Source: Phaeobacter sp. HF9A (GTDB lineage Bacteria > Pseudomonadota > Alphaproteobacteria > Rhodobacterales > Rhodobacteraceae). Taken from it: a stretch of DNA of 50,178 bases. Below are positions 13 to 8,499 of the stretch, in pieces. A program made the translations under genes and the position numbers. The number at the start of each line of letters is the position of its first letter. The stretch's first letter is position 1. The notes below the pieces were generated by a model that worked only from the letters and a program-made list of their open reading frames with translations, ran no database searches and had not been told where the DNA came from. The DNA is taken from positions 1 through 50,178 of the forward strand of contig NZ_JAATOX010000018.1 of NCBI RefSeq assembly GCF_011806385.1, given 5' to 3'.

Positions 13-150
13 ATGGCGGATCAATTGTTCTGCGAAAAACGGCTTGACTGGGACGCCCCCGTTACCGAAGTCCAGACGCTGGATTCTGTGCAGGCTTCGT
101 CAGAAAAAGTGATCCGGGACGCAGGCTTTGCCGTAGCCGGGGTATGCTGA
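13..150 (+). CDS. possible 45-aa small ORF upstream of rpoE
   Basis: This is an open frame from ATG at 13 to TGA at 148-150, preceded by a good Shine-Dalgarno sequence (AAGGA at 2-6, six bases before the ATG). The product starts MADQLFCEKRLDWD and has no signal peptide, membrane segment or motif that I recognise. The candidate sigma-E promoter of rpoE lies inside its 3' end. It could be a real small gene, a leader peptide, or chance; its only support is the ribosome binding site and the uninterrupted frame. Confidence 0.3.
   Translation: MADQLFCEKRLDWDAPVTEVQTLDSVQASSEKVIRDAGFAVAGVC
110..137 (+). promoter_or_regulatory. candidate sigma-E promoter of rpoE-chrR
   Basis: TGATCC at 110-115 is followed, after exactly 18 bases, by TAGCC starting at 134. 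The same TGATCC-N18-TA geometry occurs at 3119-3148 in front of the FAD-enzyme operon, which supports both as sites for the RpoE encoded here. RpoE-ChrR pairs of this type usually autoregulate. The -10 is GC-rich, so the call is moderate. Confidence 0.5.
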
Positions 151-218
151 ACGAAATTCTTGACACAAGATACGCCGAACGGCGGCCTGGGCTGGCGCAA
201 CGTCATGAAAGAATACCT

Positions 219-779
219 GTGTCGAAAAGCAAGATCGAGATTTCGCAGCAGACCCGATGGATGATTGCCGTGCGGGACAATCGGGACCGCGCCGCATTTG
301 CCGCTCTATTCGATGCCTTTGCGCCCAAGCTAAAAGGCTTCATCATGCGCTCTGGAGCCTCCGCACATCAGGCCGAAGAAATCGTGCAGGACGTGATGCT
401 GACAATCTGGCGCAAGGCAGCGCAGTTCGATCCGCATCGCGCTCAGGTCTCGGCCTGGATCTATCAGATCGCCCGAAACCGTCAGATTGACATCGCCCGC
501 AAGGAAAACCGCCCCATGCCCGAGGAGCTGAAGGAAGAGCCGGGGACGGAACCCGACGCCAGCCAGATCCTCGGCCTGGAACAGGAAGCCGGGCAGTTGA
601 GGCACGCGCTTGCCGCGCTCAAGCCCGAACAACGCGAGATCATTGAACAGGCCTATCTTGGCGAGCTGACTCATCAGGAGATCAGTGCGCAGACCGGTCT
701 GCCGCTTGGAACAATTAAGTCGCGCATCCGGCTTGGACTGGAGCGCCTCAGACACGAGTTAAAGGACCTCAAATCATGA
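219..779 (+). CDS. rpoE: ECF RNA polymerase sigma factor (RpoE, ChrR-partnered)
   Basis: An ECF sigma factor of about 186 aa. Region 2 contains the helix around EEIVQDVMLTIWRKA and region 4 carries the helix-turn-helix around LTHQEISAQTGLPLGTIKSRI. The GTG at 219 is preferred because the 25 residues available upstream do not look like a sigma factor; an ATG at 144 is the alternative. The stop overlaps the ATG of the chrR-like gene by 4 bases, so the pair is translationally coupled. In Rhodobacter sphaeroides the homologous pair controls the singlet-oxygen response. Its neighbours here, a fatty acid methyltransferase and a flavoenzyme, fit that regulon. Function is inferred from family and context. 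Confidence 0.9.
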   Translation: MSKSKIEISQQTRWMIAVRDNRDRAAFAALFDAFAPKLKGFIMRSGASAHQAEEIVQDVMLTIWRKAAQFDPHRAQVSAWIYQIARNRQIDIARKENRPMPEELKEEPGTEPDASQILGLEQEAGQLRHALAALKPEQREIIEQAYLGELTHQEISAQTGLPLGTIKSRIRLGLERLRHELKDLKS

Positions 780-1411
780 GTGCCATAACCCATCATGTCC
801 CCGATGCCATGTTGGCCTCCTATGCGGCCGGCACCCTTCCGCATGCCTTCGCGGTCGCTGTGGCCAGCCATGTTTCAATGTGTGAGCAGTGCCGGGCGGC
901 TTTGGGCGCGCATCAGGCGGTTGGCGGTGCCATTCTTGAAGAGACACCTTCTGTCGCGGTTTCCCCTGCGTTGAAGCGCGACCTGCTGGCACGGCTGGAC
1001 GCGCCGTTCACACCAGAGCCGGTGTTTGAGCGAAAAGGCATCTTTCCCGGCCCGGTCATGGAAGCATTGAGAGGCCGTGCACTGCGTTGGAAAACACTGG
1101 GCATGGGGGTCCGTCAGGATATCCTGGCCGCGGACCCGAGCGGCTCTGTCCGACTGCTCTACATCCCGCCGGGACAGGCGGTGCCCGATCACGGCCATAA
1201 CGGGTTGGAACTGACGTTGGTGCTGCAAGGCAGCTTCAGCGACGAAACCGGCCGATTTGGCGTTGGCGATGTCGAGATTGCCGACGAACACCTAGAGCAT
1301 ACGCCGGTTGCCGACGATGGAGACCCCTGTATCTGCCTGGCGGCAACGGACGCGCGATTGCGTTTTCGTGCGCTGGTGCCACGGCTGTTGCAGCCGCTGT
1401 TCCGAATTTAG
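776..1411 (+). CDS. chrR: ChrR-family zinc anti-sigma factor with cupin domain
   Basis: A 211-aa protein with two parts. The N-terminal anti-sigma domain has the zinc-site pattern His6 (or His7), His32-x3-Cys36-x2-Cys39. The C-terminal cupin (about 105-205) has a second likely metal site: His139, His141, Glu145 and His172 or His175. This matches ChrR, which holds RpoE inactive until singlet oxygen or organic hydroperoxide triggers its release and proteolysis, with the cupin needed for signalling. It overlaps rpoE by ATGA. A terminator-like hairpin follows, so rpoE-chrR is probably a closed two-gene unit. Confidence 0.92.
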   Translation: MSAITHHVPDAMLASYAAGTLPHAFAVAVASHVSMCEQCRAALGAHQAVGGAILEETPSVAVSPALKRDLLARLDAPFTPEPVFERKGIFPGPVMEALRGRALRWKTLGMGVRQDILAADPSGSVRLLYIPPGQAVPDHGHNGLELTLVLQGSFSDETGRFGVGDVEIADEHLEHTPVADDGDPCICLAATDARLRFRALVPRLLQPLFRI

Positions 1412-1436
1412 CCCCAGCCGCACGTGACCTGTGTCG

Positions 1437-1464
1437 GAAGCCGTCCCTTTGGCGGCTTTCTTTT
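1437..1464 (+). terminator. Rho-independent terminator after chrR
   Basis: AAGCCG (1438-1443) pairs with CGGCTT (1453-1458) around a 9-base loop and is followed by TCTTTTC. It is correctly placed 26 bases after the chrR stop. Confidence 0.65.
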
Positions 1465-1559
1465 CGTCGGGATGTGTTGGACATGAGGAGGAGCTCCCCA
1501 CGCGCGCCGCGCCTTCGGACCAATCTTGCGCTGGGTTCCAGCACGTTGTGGTGAAGGCG

Positions 1560-2285
1560 CTATTTGCCGCGATACACCAGCCAGTCCGGCAGCATCGCCA
1601 GCGCGCGGATCGCCCAGGAAAAAGGCGCCGGGAAATCGGTGCGAAAACGGCGCTTCGACATCGCCTTTATCACGCGGTCCGCCGCATCCTCGGGCGTCAT
1701 CAGCATGGGCATGCGAAAGGTGTTTTTTCGCGTGAGGCGGGTCTTGATAAAACCGGGGTTGACCAGGCGCACCACGATGCCCGTTCCCCTGAGGTCAAAG
1801 CGCATGGTTTCGGCAAGGCTCACCACTGCGGCCTTGCTGGCGGCATATCCGATCGACGCGGGCAAGCCACGATAGCCGGCAAGCGAGCCGATCAGGGTGA
1901 TATCACCGCGATCCCGCGCGACCATTGCAGGCACCACTTCCCCCAGGACACGCATCGCACCGGTGAAATTGACATCGGCCATGGTCAACGCGGTTTCGCT
2001 GTCCCAGGCCGTTGTGCGCATGGGCTCGTAGGTGCCGACATTGTAGATCCCCCCATCCACATCTCCCGCCACTTGGGCCGCCTGCCGCACCTCATCAACA
2101 TCGGTCACATCCAGTGCAAGCACGGTCGCATTGCTCAACTCCGCCCGCAGGGAGTCCAGCCGCTCTGTATTGCGTGCCGACAGGATCAGATGGGCGCCTT
2201 GCGCGTCCAACCGTTTCGCCAGCGCCCGCCCCAGGCCCTCGCTTGCCCCGATGAGCCAGTAAGTCTTGCCGAAAAAATCATTCAT
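1560..2285 (-). CDS. short-chain dehydrogenase/reductase (SDR)
   Basis: A 241-aa classical SDR. The cofactor-binding Gly motif is IGASEGLG (about 12-19) and the catalytic Tyr-Lys pair is in YAASK. The substrate is unknown. Its ATG overlaps the stop of the DUF1365 gene (ATGA), so the two are coupled and probably driven by the leftward promoter at 3061-3089. An SDR gene occupies an equivalent place in the R. sphaeroides rpoE-neighbour cluster (RSP_1087-1091, from memory). A role in lipid or membrane repair is inference from context. Confidence 0.85.
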   Translation of the reverse strand: MNDFFGKTYWLIGASEGLGRALAKRLDAQGAHLILSARNTERLDSLRAELSNATVLALDVTDVDEVRQAAQVAGDVDGGIYNVGTYEPMRTTAWDSETALTMADVNFTGAMRVLGEVVPAMVARDRGDITLIGSLAGYRGLPASIGYAASKAAVVSLAETMRFDLRGTGIVVRLVNPGFIKTRLTRKNTFRMPMLMTPEDAADRVIKAMSKRRFRTDFPAPFSWAIRALAMLPDWLVYRGK

Positions 2286-3052
2286 TTGCTGACCTCACCC
2301 AAAGGTTGGCTGTCGCTCATCAAGACCGACGGCGCAGGTTGTTTCCGAAGAAATGGCGCGCGTTTCAGATAGAGGATCGCGGCCTGCCAATGAATCAGCG
2401 TCAAGACCCGGACCGCGCCCAAGGGGCGGCGAAGCGCGGCCCACAGAAGTGAGCCGTTTGTCGCCACATGCCGGTTTCCTGACAAGGTCGCCAAGACACC
2501 TTGATCCTCATTTTCAAAGACAATGCGAATATCTATCCGCGCGTCGCTGAAACCGAAATGAAACCGGTAGTGACCGGCGATTTCCTGAAAGGGCGAGACA
2601 TGCATCAGCTTCTCGGCGATCAGCGCGTCGCTGCGTTCGATCGGGCGAAAATCCTCATGGGCGCAGAAATAGCAGTGCCTCTGGCCGAAGGTGCTGTTCA
2701 CCTCCGCAACAAAGGCCCGTGGCCTGCCATCCACCAGCGCAATCCAAAAGCTGACTGGGTTGAAATGGAACCACAGGAAGCTGGGCTGGGTCAGCAACAA
2801 AAGCTCTGCGCCCTTGGTGTCGAAACCGCGCTCTTGCAGAACCTGCTCAAACCACGCCAGACCACGCCCGCCGCCCCGCGCTCCGCCGTGCTGACGATCC
2901 CACAGTGACCAGAGATTGAACCGGTTGCGCGACATCAGCCACGGGGTCTTGGCACTGAGATCGGTCAACACGAAATCAACGCCATAGCTGAATGTGTTCT
3001 TCAGCTTTCCGCGCCGGGCATGAAGGGTTCGGGCCTGTATATGTTCGAGCAT
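2282..3052 (-). CDS. DUF1365 family protein
   Basis: About 256 aa. The family pattern is visible: an N-terminal stretch around ARTLHARRGKLKNTFSYGVDFVL, then NPVSFWIAL and the central HVSPFQEIAGHYRFHF. DUF1365 genes are commonly next to an FAD amine oxidase and a CFA-type methyltransferase, exactly as here; the biochemical role is not established to my knowledge. ATG at 3052 is chosen because homologous sequence begins there; ATG at 3055 is adjacent. The candidate -10 is only 6-9 bases upstream, so the message may be leaderless. Confidence 0.85.
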   Translation of the reverse strand: MLEHIQARTLHARRGKLKNTFSYGVDFVLTDLSAKTPWLMSRNRFNLWSLWDRQHGGARGGGRGLAWFEQVLQERGFDTKGAELLLLTQPSFLWFHFNPVSFWIALVDGRPRAFVAEVNSTFGQRHCYFCAHEDFRPIERSDALIAEKLMHVSPFQEIAGHYRFHFGFSDARIDIRIVFENEDQGVLATLSGNRHVATNGSLLWAALRRPLGAVRVLTLIHWQAAILYLKRAPFLRKQPAPSVLMSDSQPLGEVSK

Positions 3053-3060
3053 CATACCTT

Positions 3061-3089
3061 CTATACGCCAGCGCGCCGCTTTTGGATCT
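3061..3089 (-). promoter_or_regulatory. candidate sigma-E promoter of DUF1365-SDR operon
   Basis: Read on the minus strand, AGATCC (3089-3084) is followed after 18 bases by TATAG (3065-3061). It matches the TGATCC-N18-TA elements at 110 and 3119 except for the first -35 base. The -10 lies almost on the start codon, which implies a leaderless or very short leader. Confidence 0.45.
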
Positions 3090-3118
3090 GAAAAGACTGG
3101 CGATCTTTCGGGTTTTAT

Positions 3119-3148
3119 TGATCCGACCTGACGCCCCCAGCGTAACAG
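3119..3148 (+). promoter_or_regulatory. candidate sigma-E promoter of the rightward fatty acid operon
   Basis: TGATCC (3119-3124), an 18-base spacer, then TAACAG (3143-3148). The expected transcript start near 3154 leaves a short leader containing the GAGGA ribosome binding site at 3169-3173 before ATG 3178. Confidence 0.6.
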
Positions 3149-3177
3149 CTTCATTACGCTGCAAAGTTGAGGACGGT

Positions 3178-4509
3178 ATGTTCGATCAGACCCACGGCCC
3201 AAGAAAGAAGATCGCAATTGTTGGCGGAGGGATCTCCGGCCTGTCGGCGGCCTATTATCTGGCCCCCTTCCACGACGTCACCCTTTTCGAAGCGGCACCT
3301 CGATTGGGTGGGCACGCCCGCACCGTGATGGCAGGCAAGAACGGCGACCAGCCGGTCGATACCGGGTTCATCGTTTTCAATTACGTCACCTATCCTTTCC
3401 TGACGCGGCTGTTTCGTGATCTCGACGTCCCGGTGATCAAAAGCGAAATGAGCTTTGGCGCCAGCATCAACGACGGTCAGCTGGAATACGGGCTGAGCAG
3501 CATGGGCGCCATCACTGCCCAAAAGAGCAACTTGATGCGGCCACAGTTCTACAAGATGATCGCGGACATCATCCGTTTTGGAAAACGCGCCGAAGCTGCC
3601 GCCACCGATGATGAAAAGACCATCGGTGAACTGGTCGAGGAGCTCGGCCTCGGCACGTGGTTCCGCAACAACTATTTGATGCCAATGTGCGGTGCGATCT
3701 GGTCAACACCGGTTGAGGATGTGGACCGTTTCCCGGCGAAATCGCTGGTGCGGTTTTTCCGAAATCATGCGCTCTTGGCCGGTTCGGGCAAACACCAGTG
3801 GTGGACGGTGAAGGGCGGCAGCATCGAATATATACGCCGCCTGGACGCCGCGCTTCGCGCCCGGGGGTGCATCATTCGCACCGATACGCCGGTGCGCCAT
3901 GTCCAGCGCGACGCCCAGGAGGTACGCCTCTTTGCTGACCATGGCCTTTCGGCCTCCTTTGACGAGATCATCCTGGCCTGCCACTCGGATCAGGCGCTGC
4001 AAATTTTGGGCAAAGACGCCACGCAAGCCGAAACCGACGCGCTGGGCAGTATTCGGTATCAACCAAACACCGCTGTTTTGCATTGTGACGCAAATCAGAT
4101 GCCCCGGCGTCGTGCCTGCTGGTCGAGCTGGGCCTATCGCTCGCAAGACGGCAATATCGGCCTGACCTATTGGATGAACCGCCTTCAAAGCATCCCGGAG
4201 TCGGACCCGCTTTTCGTCACCCTGAACCCGTCCACCGAAATCCCGCAGGACATGGTCTATGACGTGGCGCATTTTGCGCACCCGATGTTTGACAAGGCTG
4301 CCATCAAGGCACAGCGCGACATTCGCGACATGCAGGGACGCAACCGGACGTGGTTTGCCGGCGCGTGGAACCGGCACGGATTTCACGAGGATGGGATCGC
4401 CAGCGCGATGCGCATCGTGCGCGCCCTGAATGACCGTCGCCAATTCAAAGGAATGGAAAATGCGTTTAACCAACAAAGCCCTGAAATCGAATTTCCTGTC
4501 CACTTGTGA
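3178..4509 (+). CDS. FAD-dependent amine-oxidase-like enzyme (fatty acid modification)
   Basis: 443 aa. The N-terminal dinucleotide-binding motif is IAIVGGGISGLSAAYYL, followed by a FEAAPRLGGHARTV stretch typical of the amine oxidase/phytoene desaturase flavoprotein superfamily. The C-terminus has the FAD-contacting WFAGAWNRHGFHEDGIASA region. The family is the one found next to CFA-type methyltransferases. In R. sphaeroides the neighbour of rpoE (RSP_1091) is linked to furan fatty acid synthesis, where a desaturase UfaD acts on methylated phospholipid acyl chains. Assignment of this protein to a particular step is inference. It overlaps the next gene by 50 bases. GAGGA at 3169 sets the start. 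Confidence 0.85.
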   Translation: MFDQTHGPRKKIAIVGGGISGLSAAYYLAPFHDVTLFEAAPRLGGHARTVMAGKNGDQPVDTGFIVFNYVTYPFLTRLFRDLDVPVIKSEMSFGASINDGQLEYGLSSMGAITAQKSNLMRPQFYKMIADIIRFGKRAEAAATDDEKTIGELVEELGLGTWFRNNYLMPMCGAIWSTPVEDVDRFPAKSLVRFFRNHALLAGSGKHQWWTVKGGSIEYIRRLDAALRARGCIIRTDTPVRHVQRDAQEVRLFADHGLSASFDEIILACHSDQALQILGKDATQAETDALGSIRYQPNTAVLHCDANQMPRRRACWSSWAYRSQDGNIGLTYWMNRLQSIPESDPLFVTLNPSTEIPQDMVYDVAHFAHPMFDKAAIKAQRDIRDMQGRNRTWFAGAWNRHGFHEDGIASAMRIVRALNDRRQFKGMENAFNQQSPEIEFPVHL

Positions 4510-5617
4510 ACGGCTGCGTGACGGGCAACTGACGCTGCGCACCCCGGAAGGCGAGCGATATCACTTTGGGCACTCCGGCCCCGAGGCGGAAATGGTTATC
4601 CGCGACTGGTCTGCGGTCTCGGCCCTGGCCGCCCATGGCCAGGTGGGTCTTGGCGAAACCTATGTTCAGGGTCTCTGGGATACGCCCTCGGTCGAAGCGC
4701 TGGTGGCCCTTGCCATGCGCAACCGCGATTATCTGGGCACATTCGATCAGGCCAACCCATTCAACAAGGCCAAGTTCCGCCTGGTCGATACCGTGTTGCG
4801 GGCCAATTCACGTCGCGGTTCCCGTAAGAACATCCGCGCCCATTACGATGTGGGCAACGAGTTTTACGCACTGTGGCTGGACGAAGGAATGACATATTCC
4901 TCCGGCCTCTATGAACAAGCCGATGACGATCTGAACCGTGCGCAAACCCGCAAGAACGCGCGCGCGCTGTCGCGGCTCGGGAGCGGAGAGCGCACGCTCG
5001 AAATCGGCTGCGGATGGGGCGGATTTGCGGAACATGCCAGCGAAGAAGGGCGTGACGTGACCGGCGTAACCATATCGCGCACTCAGCATAGCTATGCCGA
5101 GTGCCGACTTGATGGCCGCGCCGATATCCAGCTGCGCGACTACCGCGACATAAATGGCCAATACGACAACATCGTTTCGATCGAGATGATCGAAGCGGTC
5201 GGAGAGCGCTATTGGCCCAGCTATTTTGCCACCCTCAAGCGCAACCTCGCAGAAGGCGGGCGCGTTCTTTTGCAAGCGATTACCGTCAAAGACAGTTTCT
5301 TTGACACCTACAAATCCTCCTCCGACTACATCCGCCAATACGTCTTTCCCGGTGGCATGTTGCTGTCTGACAGTGTGATCGCCGCCCAGGCCAAGACCGC
5401 GGGTTTCACCGTTCGCGACAGCTTTGCCTTCGGCCGGGACTATGCCCGAACCTGTCGCACCTGGGCCGAGCGTCTCGCCGCGCAGAAGCATCGCATTTCA
5501 GAAATGGGATATGACGAGCGCTTCTTTCGCAACTGGCAATATTATCTGGAGATTTGCGCGGCCTCCTTTGCCGTGGGTCACACCGATGTCGTTCAGGTGG
5601 AGTTGGCCCATGCCTAG
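4460..5617 (+). CDS. CFA-synthase-family SAM methyltransferase (UfaM/CfaA-like)
   Basis: 385 aa, typical for cyclopropane-fatty-acyl-phospholipid synthases. The SAM-binding motif LEIGCGWGGFAEHAS is about 175 residues in. The conserved YDVGNEFYALWLDEGMTYSSGLY segment before it is also diagnostic (positions about 132-154). These enzymes methylate unsaturated acyl chains of phospholipids at the membrane. In this context, beside rpoE-chrR and the flavoenzyme, methylation towards furan fatty acids (UfaM) is as likely as cyclopropanation. ATG 4460 is preferred over one at 4430 because of AAAGGA at 4448-4453. Its stop lies inside the start of the next ORF. Confidence 0.9.
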   Translation: MRLTNKALKSNFLSTCERLRDGQLTLRTPEGERYHFGHSGPEAEMVIRDWSAVSALAAHGQVGLGETYVQGLWDTPSVEALVALAMRNRDYLGTFDQANPFNKAKFRLVDTVLRANSRRGSRKNIRAHYDVGNEFYALWLDEGMTYSSGLYEQADDDLNRAQTRKNARALSRLGSGERTLEIGCGWGGFAEHASEEGRDVTGVTISRTQHSYAECRLDGRADIQLRDYRDINGQYDNIVSIEMIEAVGERYWPSYFATLKRNLAEGGRVLLQAITVKDSFFDTYKSSSDYIRQYVFPGGMLLSDSVIAAQAKTAGFTVRDSFAFGRDYARTCRTWAERLAAQKHRISEMGYDERFFRNWQYYLEICAASFAVGHTDVVQVELAHA

Positions 5618-5750
5618 CTTTATCTGCCCGTCTGCATGGCTTGCATTGCCCATGGGGGCAGGCCTCTGGGGCAAGACCCGCGCCCGGGCGCTCTCTTGGG
5701 GCGACGCCAGCGAGTCGAACGCCTTTAGCCGCACGCCGAAAGACGCATGA
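5610..5750 (+). CDS. 46-aa small protein coupled between CFA and MFS genes
   Basis: The ATG at 5610 overlaps the methyltransferase stop by 8 bases. It has a strong Shine-Dalgarno sequence (AGGTGGAG, 5595-5602) 7 bases upstream. Its TGA (5748-5750) overlaps the ATG of the permease (5747). The N-terminus (MPSFICPSAWLALPMGAGLWG) is hydrophobic and Gly/Pro-rich, and the C-terminus is hydrophilic. I recognise no family. Without it there would be a 129-base gap in an otherwise gapless operon, which supports translation. It could be a membrane microprotein or a coupling ORF. Confidence 0.5.
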   Translation: MPSFICPSAWLALPMGAGLWGKTRARALSWGDASESNAFSRTPKDA

Positions 5751-6976
5751 TGCTGTATCCGCGTGTCAGCCTCTATGCGCTGATGCTGGCCGCGGCTGGC
5801 ATTCCGCTCTATATCCATTTGCCGCGATTTGCGTCGATCGAGCTTGGGCTCGGTCTGGGCGTGATCGGCACCATCCTGTTTGCAATCCGGCTGGTCGATC
5901 TTGTGCAGGACCCGCTGATCGGCTGGGCAATCGACCGCTGGCCGCGTGCACAAAGCCTGTTTGCAAGCATCGCAGCACTTGGGTTGGCGATCGGCTTTCC
6001 GTTGCTCTTTACCGCCCAGCCCGGACCACAGGTGGTGCCACGCCTGGTCGTCATCCTCGTGCTGCTCTTCTCCGCCTACAGCCTGGGCATGATCCTCCTC
6101 TATGGGCGCAGCGCCACTCTGGCAGCCTCGCCGACACCCCAGGCCCTGATGACGCTGGCATCCTTTCGCGAGGGGGGCATGCTTGCCGGCGTGGTGATTG
6201 CGGCCATTGCCCCGGCCATCTTCGTCGCCCTCGGGGCTGGCGGACAAGGATACCAGGCCTTCGGTCTGTTTCTTGGCGCCATGGCCCTTGGCATTGCCGC
6301 GATCACCTTGCCGATCTGGCGCCGTCCTGTCGTCCTGGGAGACAGGCTTTCCATGGAGGGCCTGCGCCAGGCTGGCGCGCTACGGCTTCTTATTCTGGCG
6401 TTGGTCAACAGCCTGCCCGTGGCGATCACATCAACCTTGTTCTTGTTCTTCGTCGAAGACCGTCTTCTGCTGCCAGGCAAGGCCGGCCCCCTTTTGGTGC
6501 TGTTCTTTCTCAGCGCAGGGCTCAGCGTGCCGCTCTGGACCCGGCTGAGCCAGAAGATGGGCCCCAAGACCACGTTGCTGATCGCGATGCCTCTGGCAAT
6601 CCTCGGTTTTGTGGGGGCGGCGTTGCTGGCACCCGGCAATCTGGCAGGATTTGCGCTGATCTGCCTGGCCTCCGGTGCCGCCTTGGGGGCCGATATGGTC
6701 ATCCTGCCCGCAATGTTCTCTGTGGCCCTGACCCACGCGGGTCTCAAGGCCTCGCTGGCGTTCGGCATCTGGTCCTTTGCGGGCAAACTTGGTCTTGCCC
6801 TGGCGGCTTTCGCGGTTCTTCCCGTTCTTGAACACAGTGGCTTCATTCCTGGCGGGACAAACAGTGCCGAAGCCTTGAAGACATTGAATATCTCCTACGC
6901 CGTCATTCCCTGCATCCTGAAACTCGGCGCCCTGGCACTCGTCATGGCGCTTCCCACCGAGGAGCCAACCAAATGA
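5747..6976 (+). CDS. MFS permease, GPH (MelB-like) type
   Basis: 409 aa with about 11-12 hydrophobic segments throughout. The motif RLVDLVQDPLIGWAIDRWP (about 45-63) is the characteristic loop of the glycoside-pentoside-hexuronide:cation symporter branch. The substrate is unknown. Given an operon devoted to fatty acyl modification under a stress sigma factor, a lipid-related cargo is possible, but that is inference. The start overlaps the small ORF and the end overlaps the DUF3833 gene (ATGA). Confidence 0.85.
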   Translation: MMLYPRVSLYALMLAAAGIPLYIHLPRFASIELGLGLGVIGTILFAIRLVDLVQDPLIGWAIDRWPRAQSLFASIAALGLAIGFPLLFTAQPGPQVVPRLVVILVLLFSAYSLGMILLYGRSATLAASPTPQALMTLASFREGGMLAGVVIAAIAPAIFVALGAGGQGYQAFGLFLGAMALGIAAITLPIWRRPVVLGDRLSMEGLRQAGALRLLILALVNSLPVAITSTLFLFFVEDRLLLPGKAGPLLVLFFLSAGLSVPLWTRLSQKMGPKTTLLIAMPLAILGFVGAALLAPGNLAGFALICLASGAALGADMVILPAMFSVALTHAGLKASLAFGIWSFAGKLGLALAAFAVLPVLEHSGFIPGGTNSAEALKTLNISYAVIPCILKLGALALVMALPTEEPTK

Positions 6977-7533
6977 AACTCATTACGGCCCTGCTTCTGC
7001 TTGTCATCTTGGTCATGGCGGCAAAGTCCATGTTCTTCAGCTTTCGCGCGCAGACCCCGGCAGATTACGCCGATACCAGCCCTGCCTTCTCCTTGCAGAC
7101 CCACCTGAACGGTGAAATCCGGTCCGAAGGTGTGATCTTCGGTCCAACCGGCAAGATGACGAACAGTTTCGTTGCCAGAATGGTCGGCGAATGGGACGGC
7201 GACACGGGCACCCTGAGCGAGGAGTTCACCTATTCAAACGGCAAACAACAACGTCGTGAATGGTCCCTGAAAATGGGCGCTAACAACACCTTCACCGGCA
7301 CGGCTGATGATATCATTGGCGAGGCGCAGGGCGTGGTTTCGGGATCGACGATCAGAATGGACTACCAGATCGTTCTGCCAAAGGAGTCAGGCGGTCATAC
7401 GCTGACAGCAACCGACTGGCTGTATCTGACCGAAAGCGGCGTCATCATGAACAAGTCAGAGATGCGCATGTTTGGCATCAAGGTGGCGGAGCTGATCGCA
7501 ACCATGCGCCCGGATCCCGAGGCCCAGCGCTGA
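6973..7533 (+). CDS. DUF3833 family protein, membrane-anchored or exported
   Basis: 186 aa. The N-terminal hydrophobic helix (about 2-17) has no cysteine lipobox, so it is a signal anchor or uncleaved signal. The rest is a beta-rich domain with DUF3833 features: GEIRSEGVIFGPTGKMTNSF near the start and the closing WLYLTESGVIMNKSEMRMFGIKVAEL. Its role is unknown. It is the last gene of the rightward stress operon, coupled to the permease by ATGA. Its last 56 bases overlap the convergent hydrolase gene. Confidence 0.8.
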   Translation: MKLITALLLLVILVMAAKSMFFSFRAQTPADYADTSPAFSLQTHLNGEIRSEGVIFGPTGKMTNSFVARMVGEWDGDTGTLSEEFTYSNGKQQRREWSLKMGANNTFTGTADDIIGEAQGVVSGSTIRMDYQIVLPKESGGHTLTATDWLYLTESGVIMNKSEMRMFGIKVAELIATMRPDPEAQR

Positions 7534-8383
7534 GCCAGGCCGCGACCTCTTCCCAAAGCCTCTCTCGCCCCGGCAGAAAGCCCCCCGCGTGGCCGATGCG
7601 GCGCAGGCCGAGGTCGCGTGGCCTGCGAAAGGCGAGCTCGCTCGATGCATTGGGATAGAGGGCGAGCAGGTCTGGGGCGCTTTTGCGCGTGGCGATGGGA
7701 TCGTCGGAGAAGACCCAGGAGCGGATCGGGGCCGTGACCTCGGCATAGGATTGCAGCTGCGATGCTGATGCAAGGTCGCGGCGCAAATACCCGGGACGCT
7801 GGCACCACCGCCGCCAGGTGCGAAACAGGCGCGGCGGCAAGGCTTCGCCGCTCCAGCCTCCGATCGGCATTATCTGCTTGTATCGCAACAGCGAATAGGG
7901 CCCAAGCCCCCACCAGAAATACAGCTCCAGTGGAATGTACCACAGATGGTGCGCGCCCCAATAGCCGCTGCCGACACCGATAAAAGCATGTCGCGATAAT
8001 TCAATTTGATTGGCGGCAAGACCCAGGAAATGGCCACCGACACTATGCCCGATATGTGTCAGCGGCAGCCCCTTGGCCTGGTGGCGCAGCGTGTCAATCG
8101 CGCTGGGCAGGTCAAGGCTTCCCCAATCGGTGTAGTCGATCTGATCAAAGCCCTCGTCGCCGTTGCGCGACTCGGCGATGCCCCGATAATCATAGGTCAG
8201 CACCATCGCACCCCGGGCGGCGAGGTAGCCCGCGATGTGGCGGTAAAACCGTCGTGGAAAACCGGTTCCAGCGGATATCAGCACCCCATAGTGCGGCACA
8301 TCCCGCCCCCGGTAGAGCGTGCCCACCAGAGGCCAGCCGTCGCGCGCGGCGAACTGAATATCCTCTGCGTGAACCTCCGTCAT
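7478..8383 (-). CDS. alpha/beta hydrolase
   Basis: 301 aa from ATG 8383 (an ATG at 8395 would add 4 residues). The nucleophile elbow is GHSVGG (Ser about 114), with a likely acid in FSDDPIAT and a catalytic His in RIGHAGGF. It is a soluble serine hydrolase, probably acting on an ester or acyl substrate, of unknown specificity. A Trp/Tyr-rich insert (LWYIPLELYFWWGLGPYSLL) may form a hydrophobic lid. The 17-residue tail past the fold overlaps the end of the DUF3833 gene. It lies 116 bases downstream of the ligase gene on the same strand, so co-transcription with the beta-oxidation operon is possible. Confidence 0.8.
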   Translation of the reverse strand: MTEVHAEDIQFAARDGWPLVGTLYRGRDVPHYGVLISAGTGFPRRFYRHIAGYLAARGAMVLTYDYRGIAESRNGDEGFDQIDYTDWGSLDLPSAIDTLRHQAKGLPLTHIGHSVGGHFLGLAANQIELSRHAFIGVGSGYWGAHHLWYIPLELYFWWGLGPYSLLRYKQIMPIGGWSGEALPPRLFRTWRRWCQRPGYLRRDLASASQLQSYAEVTAPIRSWVFSDDPIATRKSAPDLLALYPNASSELAFRRPRDLGLRRIGHAGGFLPGRERLWEEVAAWLSAGPRDPGAWLRSAPPP

Positions 8384-8499
8384 CGGGCGTGCCACTGTCC
8401 TGTTGCTGGTCAGCTGTGCGTTTCCTTGTCAGGAGGCGCACAGCCGGTTTGCATTGCATGGGTGATGCCTGACCGGCCAAGGCGCGGCGGCATCTTGCG

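Follow-up and report, generated by a model that had tools for sequence, protein, structure and literature searches.

We analysed a 50,178-base stretch of Phaeobacter sp. HF9A (contig NZ_JAATOX010000018.1, one contig of a 262-contig genome assembly that is 94.8% complete), referred to below as the window. It opens with an ECF11 sigma-E/ChrR locus for furan fatty acids, a known system, here in a rearranged layout. The promoters and genes are given below by window position and strand (nt, nucleotides; aa, amino acids).

110..135, plus strand: predicted sigma-E promoter of rpoE-chrR, TGATCC-N16-CGTA, 8 nt before ATG 144
144..779, plus strand: rpoE, ECF11-type sigma factor (Pfam Sigma70_r2/r4); probable start ATG 144 (211 aa), internal alternative GTG 219 (186 aa)
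776..1411, plus strand: chrR, zinc anti-sigma factor with a cupin domain (TIGR02451, above cut-off)
1560..2285, minus strand: SDR oxidoreductase of the RSP1087 type (Pfam adh_short), with an ATGA overlap with ufaO
2282..3055, minus strand: ufaO (DUF1365), homologue of the furan-ring-forming monooxygenase (Pfam DUF1365, 7.3e-61)
3064..3089, minus strand: predicted sigma-E promoter of ufaO-SDR, AGATCC-N16-CGTA, 8 nt from the ATG, its presence and spacing conserved in relatives
3119..3144, plus strand: predicted sigma-E promoter of the ufaD operon, TGATCC-N16-CGTA
3178..4509, plus strand: ufaD, homologue of the flavin-dependent acyl desaturase (Pfam Amino_oxidase; RSP1091 is UfaD)
4460..5617, plus strand: ufaM-like S-adenosylmethionine-dependent methyltransferase of the CMAS family (Pfam CMAS, 4.2e-76)
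5610..5750, plus strand: open reading frame (ORF) of 46 codons, best read as a remnant of the 3′ end of a deleted chalcone-isomerase-like gene (shortened gap, stop-anchored identity)
5747..6976, plus strand: MFS_2 (GPH-type) transporter, RSP1089-type by order and length (Pfam MFS_2, 1.1e-39)
6973..7533, plus strand: DUF3833 protein, RSP1088-type by order and length (Pfam DUF3833, 2e-53), predicted as an N-terminal helix and a ten-stranded calycin barrel

Pfam and TIGR profile matches assigned the products to the families ECF sigma, ChrR, SDR, DUF1365, FAD amine oxidase-like, CMAS methyltransferase, MFS_2 and DUF3833. The gene and family calls that an earlier note had made for this DNA held as written, except for the small ORF at 5610. 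The stop/start overlaps between neighbouring genes suggest that these are operons.

For comparison, 119 related loci were collected (39 stretches and 80 named contigs), 109 of them distinct by ufaO sequence. Among the distinct loci, 36 share the divergent layout of the window, 72 are colinear (ufaD followed by ufaO in one direction) and one, L106, fits neither arrangement. Gene presence was counted in 96 clusters longer than 17 kb, and the start of rpoE in a separate set of 96 distinct loci, each with TGATC(C/T)-N16-CGTA before rpoE; the tblastn query for rpoE began at GTG 219. The nearest named relatives by UfaO belong to Aliiroseovarius, Shimia species and one Rhodobacteraceae isolate, followed by Leisingera, Roseovarius and others. 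Two Shimia loci (L091, L114) have the divergent layout without the methyltransferase, the chalcone-isomerase-like gene or the promoter motif before ufaD and ufaO.

The ECF sigma gene adjoins a gene for a ChrR-type zinc anti-sigma factor with a cupin domain, which is the arrangement of ECF11 systems. ChrR scored 200.4 bits against the TIGR02451 cut-off of 124.5 and aligned over 196 residues with the Rhodobacter sphaeroides ChrR structure 2z2s (phmmer, 1.9e-65). All eight zinc-ligand residues named in PMC6852236 are identical to those of R. sphaeroides ChrR. Published work is cited here from partial texts of the papers. According to these, ChrR turnover under singlet oxygen requires the genes for furan synthesis, which form part of a core regulon of about eight genes (PMC6852236), and ChrR proteolysis in R. 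sphaeroides depends on RSP_1090 (PMC3818230).

Predicted promoters of the ECF11 type, TGATCC-N16-CGTA, stand before rpoE and its putative targets and are conserved in relatives. Three motif sites, at 110 and 3119 on the plus strand and at 3089 on the minus strand, had been reported for this DNA, and we found them exactly there. The pattern (T/A)GATCC-N16-CGTA occurs only at these three places in the 50,178 bases, one per transcription unit. A first-order Markov model gives a mean of 0.06 occurrences, and none of 200 simulations reached three. One published R. sphaeroides RpoE target promoter, in the part of the source available, reads TGATCC-N15-GCGTA (PMC5036791); site 3089 differs from it at the first base, a single mismatch in the −35 element, and site 110 has C instead of G before CGTA.

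A looser form, TGATCC-N18/19-TA, was rejected as evidence. It occurs twice in the window against 1.15 expected, a number that 29 of 100 shuffles also reached, and at 131 places genome-wide. It was replaced by (T/A)GATCC-N16-CGTA together with footprinting in relatives.

In the divergent relatives, the strict form TGATCC-N16-CGTA was found before rpoE in 30/34 loci, before ufaD in 30/36 and before ufaO in 30/36. In the colinear relatives the corresponding counts were 64/67, 39/70 and 0/72. The motif thus tracks the start of the transcription unit across layouts, which is hard to explain other than by a working promoter. With this strong footprint, the earlier proposal of one regulon read from three sigma-E-type promoters gains support.

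A UfaO-type DUF1365 gene beside a UfaD-type flavoenzyme gene, both under predicted sigma-E control, marks the locus as one for furan fatty acids. In the R. sphaeroides pathway, cis-vaccenate is methylated by UfaM (RSP2144) and then desaturated by UfaD (RSP1091), after which UfaO (RSP1090, a DUF1365 protein) forms the furan with oxygen from O2, as reported from both genetics and in vitro work in the available part of PMC7380195. The ufaD and ufaO genes alone (RSP_1091 and RSP_1090) restored singlet-oxygen resistance to an operon deletion (PMC3818230, partial text). The view that the DUF1365 protein has no assigned step is therefore out of date, while the earlier assignments of RpoE-ChrR, UfaD and a UfaM-type enzyme stand. 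UfaO has no solved relative by sequence. Its predicted model (predicted local distance difference test, pLDDT, 92.4; folding alignment from 42 of the 80 named loci) gave only weak barrel matches, the best with Z 6.8 to a designed barrel and 6.6 to nitrobindin, at a root-mean-square deviation (rmsd) above 4 and a best Foldseek E value of 2.9e-03. Given these matches, we make no claim on heme, metal or another cofactor.

The earlier note also spoke of cyclopropane fatty acid operons, a label that appears doubtful for this methyltransferase. Glu239, His266 and Tyr317 (Escherichia coli numbering) are given as the three bicarbonate ligands of cyclopropane synthase in the accessible part of PMC11387697. 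We aligned the locus methyltransferases free of internal stops (69 with the window included, 63 distinct sequences) to E. coli Cfa (6bqc). The position of Glu239 is Glu in 68/69 and that of Tyr317 is Tyr in 69/69, while the position of His266 is Gln in all 69. Two ligands of the cyclopropane synthase set are thus kept and the third is replaced, a change that would fit an enzyme leaving a methyl group rather than a cyclopropane ring.

The spacing between promoter and start codon points to a further property of rpoE and ufaO. In 92/96 relatives an ATG lies exactly 8 nt after the CGTA before rpoE, and in three more it lies at 9 nt; the ATG 144 of the window is also at 8 nt. In 93/96 relatives the 8-nt position keeps the phase of rpoE, and the frame read from it is free of stops in 92/96, compared with 15 and 24 for the other two frames. 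As the offsets from the promoter to the GTG 219 codon step by three, ATG 144 was preferred as the probable start of rpoE. From the 8-nt ATG to the codon aligned with GTG 219, the predicted extension of RpoE in relatives measures 23–51 codons.

For ufaO, an open start in frame follows CGTA closely in every one of the 31 divergent loci that have the motif, at 8 nt in 21 loci, 9 nt in one, 10 nt in one and 11 nt in eight. The window has it at 8 nt. In locus L048 the ufaO motif stands 136 nt before the aligned start, and an open frame there would be longer. Thr10, His12 and Arg14 of UfaO are invariant over 25 family members, colinear ones included, and the window gene lacks in-frame ATG, GTG and TTG codons between residues 2 and 10, which makes a later start of ufaO unlikely.

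The ufaD gene behaves differently. Its 8-nt position is mostly A but not ATG (AAA in 26, ATA in 10, ACA in 7, GAA in 6, AAC in 5 and CAA in 3 lead among 81 loci), its phase is mixed, and in most loci the first in-frame open start follows CGTA by about 25–34 nt. Transcription by sigma factors of this class usually begins some 9 nt downstream of CGTA. With a start at that A, the leaders of rpoE and ufaO would measure about 0–3 nt and ufaD would have a normal one. The rpoE and ufaO messages are therefore probably leaderless, judged from the DNA alone. The word "leaderless" had no occurrence in the literature among the matches listed.

A tentative extension of this result, which we regard as a real possibility rather than as the probable case, is that the leaderless message made by sigma-E yields an N-terminally extended RpoE. 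The extension would be 23–51 residues long, poorly conserved and in phase across Rhodobacteraceae, and the short form could come from an internal start. One clade would then have gained a separate leaderless ufaO transcript. The sigma factor and the enzyme that forms the furan, which ChrR turnover needs, would in this way share an unusual mode of translation, distinct from that of the ufaD operon, whose leader is normal.

The small ORF at 5610–5750 had been counted as a gene of the ufaD operon. It is not a conserved gene; the most likely reading is that an in-frame deletion in a chalcone-isomerase-like gene left it behind. Among 50 related loci that have the methyltransferase and MFS genes close together (not de-duplicated, window left out), 43 carry such a gene of about 160 codons in the interval, and the other seven have gaps of 9–87 nt there. 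In the window this interval falls short of the most frequent gap, 486 nt, by 354 nt (118 codons). With the stop codons as anchor, the final 75 nt show a mean identity of 44.5% to the genes of 44 relatives, compared with 27.1% for coding pieces of the window, and 0/2874 such pieces scored as high. Free local alignment of the remnant with full genes was no better than shuffles (270/500 as good for L036 and 43/500 for L037), so the argument for a remnant is one of position and stop-anchored identity.

The full chalcone-isomerase-like protein opens with a signal-like stretch, as judged by eye. It matches Pfam Chalcone_3 (PF16036) weakly: 20/35 members reached E ≤0.001 (best 4.8e-10), and against the gathering cut-off of 27 bits L071 scored 30.2 and L036 20.3. 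No solved relative was found by sequence (best E 0.88). Among the papers listed, none used the term chalcone isomerase-like, and none combined chalcone isomerases with fatty acid binding in the bacterial periplasm. In all 38 loci longer than 17 kb that carry the gene, the MFS gene accompanies it. Its distribution suggests repeated loss. The gene is also absent in L087, L089, L110, L055, L119, L120 and L155.

The MFS, DUF3833 and SDR genes remain without an assigned step, as the earlier note had it. We equated RSP1089, RSP1088 and RSP1087 with them, respectively, by gene order and length; PMC5507510 names RSP_1087 as an SDR. The DUF3833 protein had no convincing solved relative by sequence (best E 0.58), and none of the three papers found to mention DUF3833 concerned its function, judged by titles and abstract openings. 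Its AlphaFold2 model (pLDDT 94.7; predicted template modelling score 0.85; 47/58 usable sequences) consists of an N-terminal helix at residues 2–21 and a ten-stranded barrel. The top row of each fold list was a designed barrel. The best natural proteins in Foldseek were OssO (5.5e-05) and BFA1 (8.2e-05), and by fold alone the barrel is of the calycin type. The VIA-align 2 Z scores were 15.1 for BFA1, 14.2 for nitrobindin (rmsd 2.7, 135 aligned residues), 12.2 for the fatty acid-binding protein-like Ycf58 and 10.5 for human FABP3 with palmitate (rmsd 2.9, 114 aligned). The prediction for DUF3833 is a membrane-anchored calycin barrel. The MFS protein had weak phmmer matches to the melibiose permease MelB (6.4e-06) and to a lysophosphatidylcholine symporter (0.0011). 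With low confidence, we suggest that the MFS protein, DUF3833 and, where kept, the chalcone-isomerase-like protein may act together on lipids of the envelope; the deletion results from R. sphaeroides do not call for such a role.

A second, divergent DUF3833 gene follows the first in 10 loci of the divergent layout (not de-duplicated), for example in Aliiroseovarius. Its product is 29–31% identical to that of the window, and the three copies tested (L036:2984-3487, L037:14298-14801 and L097:4536-5030) were above the Pfam cut-off. On the other side of the window's DUF3833 gene, an alpha/beta hydrolase (Hydrolase_4) ORF at 7478–8395 on the minus strand meets it tail to tail with a 56-base overlap. 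No tblastn match to this ORF (1e-5) was observed in any of the 39 first-compared related loci.

In general, we are confident in the explanation as a whole, namely an ECF11 sigma-E/ChrR locus in which one sigma factor drives three units, with furan acid synthesis, leaderless rpoE and ufaO and an optional accessory set. Several observations weigh against it. The motif, even in its loose form, is absent before ufaD in 21/70 colinear relatives. The strict motif occurs at seven places genome-wide, two of them in this locus, and downstream of the other five no core-regulon gene was recognised among ORFs inspected by eye, with no family search run. No motif was found at up to two mismatches, with GAT and TA required, in the photolyase-family loci (L031, L032) and the RpoH/RpoD-type loci (L163, L164), of 3.3–3.8 kb. 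A search for reaction-centre genes in the genome (94.8% complete) was negative, so this is probably a non-phototroph, which leaves the source of singlet oxygen to be explained. The evidence for leaderless transcription consists of spacing and phase only. The codon-position GC of the RpoE extension (0.61, 0.52, 0.59) is only partly coding-like compared with the body of rpoE (0.66, 0.42, 0.70), and the solved R. sphaeroides RpoE, whose alignment begins no earlier than residue 35 of the long form (phmmer, 2.3e-59), has just 8 residues before the aligned core. Finally, removing RSP1089, RSP1088 and RSP1087 in a chrR mutant background gave no detectable change in fatty acids, according to the accessible text of PMC7380195, so that the accessory role is a conjecture.

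Some of these points also speak for other explanations. The weakly coding-like extension, poorly conserved in both sequence and length, and the solved protein that lacks it would agree with translation of RpoE from an internal start near GTG 219 only, the in-phase ATG being a coupled upstream start without a stable product. We consider this unlikely, though it deserves to be taken seriously, since ribosomes loading at an ATG whose phase and open frame are kept in nearly all relatives would continue into rpoE. The unchanged fatty acid profiles, the sufficiency of ufaD and ufaO for resistance and the absence of the neighbouring chalcone-isomerase-like gene from several lineages could likewise mean that the MFS, DUF3833 and SDR genes are co-transcribed hitchhikers without a lipid role. 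This is a rather improbable explanation. Despite reordering, SDR is present in 94, DUF3833 in 72 and MFS in 70 of the 96 clusters; RSP_1087 and RSP_1088, and not RSP_1089, are listed in the published core regulon (Table 2 of PMC5507510, partial text); and the predicted DUF3833 fold often binds hydrophobic ligands. The deletions and the sufficiency of the two ufa genes do indicate that the three genes are not steps of ring synthesis under the conditions used there.

The small ORF is open over 46 codons, overlaps the stop and start of its neighbours and did not beat shuffles in free local alignment with the full gene, as might be the case for a functional leader or regulatory peptide. This is very improbable, because relatives have either the full gene or a short gap at this place and the anchored end resembles the chalcone-isomerase-like gene more than any null piece. 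We regard as scarcely plausible that the methyltransferase is an ordinary cyclopropane fatty acid synthase, with the locus mainly hardening membranes by cyclopropane lipids and with ufaD and ufaO acting elsewhere. Among solved structures it does match cyclopropane synthases best (E. coli 6bqc, 1.4e-48), and the search of the genome returned no other CMAS match of full length. The uniform Gln at the His266 position, next to the kept Glu and Tyr, argues for a different product. So does the adjacency of ufaD, ufaO and the methyltransferase gene in many relatives, which matches RPA2571–2569 of Rhodopseudomonas palustris, reported to be together sufficient for furan acid synthesis (PMC7380195, partial text). 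The remnant and a UfaM-type methyltransferase remain our preferred readings.

A search of the genome with the RpoH model returned one frame of 297 codons and one of 665 codons (probably rpoD), neither above the cut-off. RpoHII, a second heat-shock sigma factor under sigma-E control in R. sphaeroides, may be absent or unassembled here.

We propose the following mechanism. ChrR, with its zinc anti-sigma and cupin domains, would hold sigma-E until singlet oxygen triggers ChrR turnover, perhaps through an oxidation product of acyl lipids. The freed sigma factor would transcribe rpoE-chrR, the operon of ufaD, ufaM, the decayed chalcone-isomerase-like gene, MFS and DUF3833, and, from a separate promoter, ufaO-SDR. 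UfaM would methylate the cis-vaccenoyl chain in place, UfaD would desaturate it, and UfaO would insert O2 and close the furan. The furan acids would be consumed by singlet oxygen, and the synthesis genes would be required for ChrR turnover, as shown in R. sphaeroides. The rpoE and ufaO messages would start at the ATG or within a few bases of it, and RpoE would carry a translated N-terminal extension. An optional set for handling envelope lipids, apart from ring synthesis, would consist of the MFS protein, the DUF3833 barrel with its membrane anchor and, in genomes that keep it, the exported chalcone-isomerase-like protein.

For the window, the analysis is mostly a clean annotation of a known system and a correction of which genes remain unexplained (SDR, DUF3833 and MFS). 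The real additions are the variant layout, the loss of the chalcone-isomerase-like gene and, most of all, an in-phase ATG where the rpoE transcript is predicted to start. Should rpoE be leaderless and code for a longer sigma factor, laboratory constructs may use a start other than the stress-made one, and leaderless translation could promote the response when cells are under stress. The route from singlet oxygen to ChrR breakdown requires the furan enzymes. The fold of DUF3833 and its chalcone-isomerase-like partner offer handles on the core-regulon members SDR and DUF3833 and on MFS, which is not listed there.

Compared with the core ECF11 regulon (Dufour 2008, as cited in PMC6852236 and PMC5507510, both available in part), counterparts of rpoE, chrR, RSP_1087, RSP_1088, RSP_1090, RSP_1091 and RSP_2144 are present, while the photolyase-family genes of this genome lack the motif at the mismatch limit given above. 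In R. palustris the furan genes ufaD, ufaO and ufaM (RPA2571, RPA2570 and RPA2569) are adjacent by number, as they are in many colinear Rhodobacteraceae loci; that order is colinear, whereas the window is divergent.

The closest parallel is R. sphaeroides (Cereibacter). In contrast to its arrangement, the window splits ufaO and SDR off divergently with a promoter of their own and has its ufaM-like gene inside the ufaD operon, whereas ufaM of R. sphaeroides (RSP2144) is unlinked. Relatives with the layout of the window also carry the chalcone-isomerase-like gene, lost in this genome. In other respects, rpoE-chrR and RSP1091–1087 correspond to the window in their regulators, in their operon genes by order and in their promoter motif. 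The protein lengths in R. sphaeroides and the window are also close, with 250 and 257 aa for UfaO, 186 and 186 for RSP1088 and DUF3833, 245 and 241 for RSP1087 and SDR, and 402 and 409 for RSP1089 and MFS.

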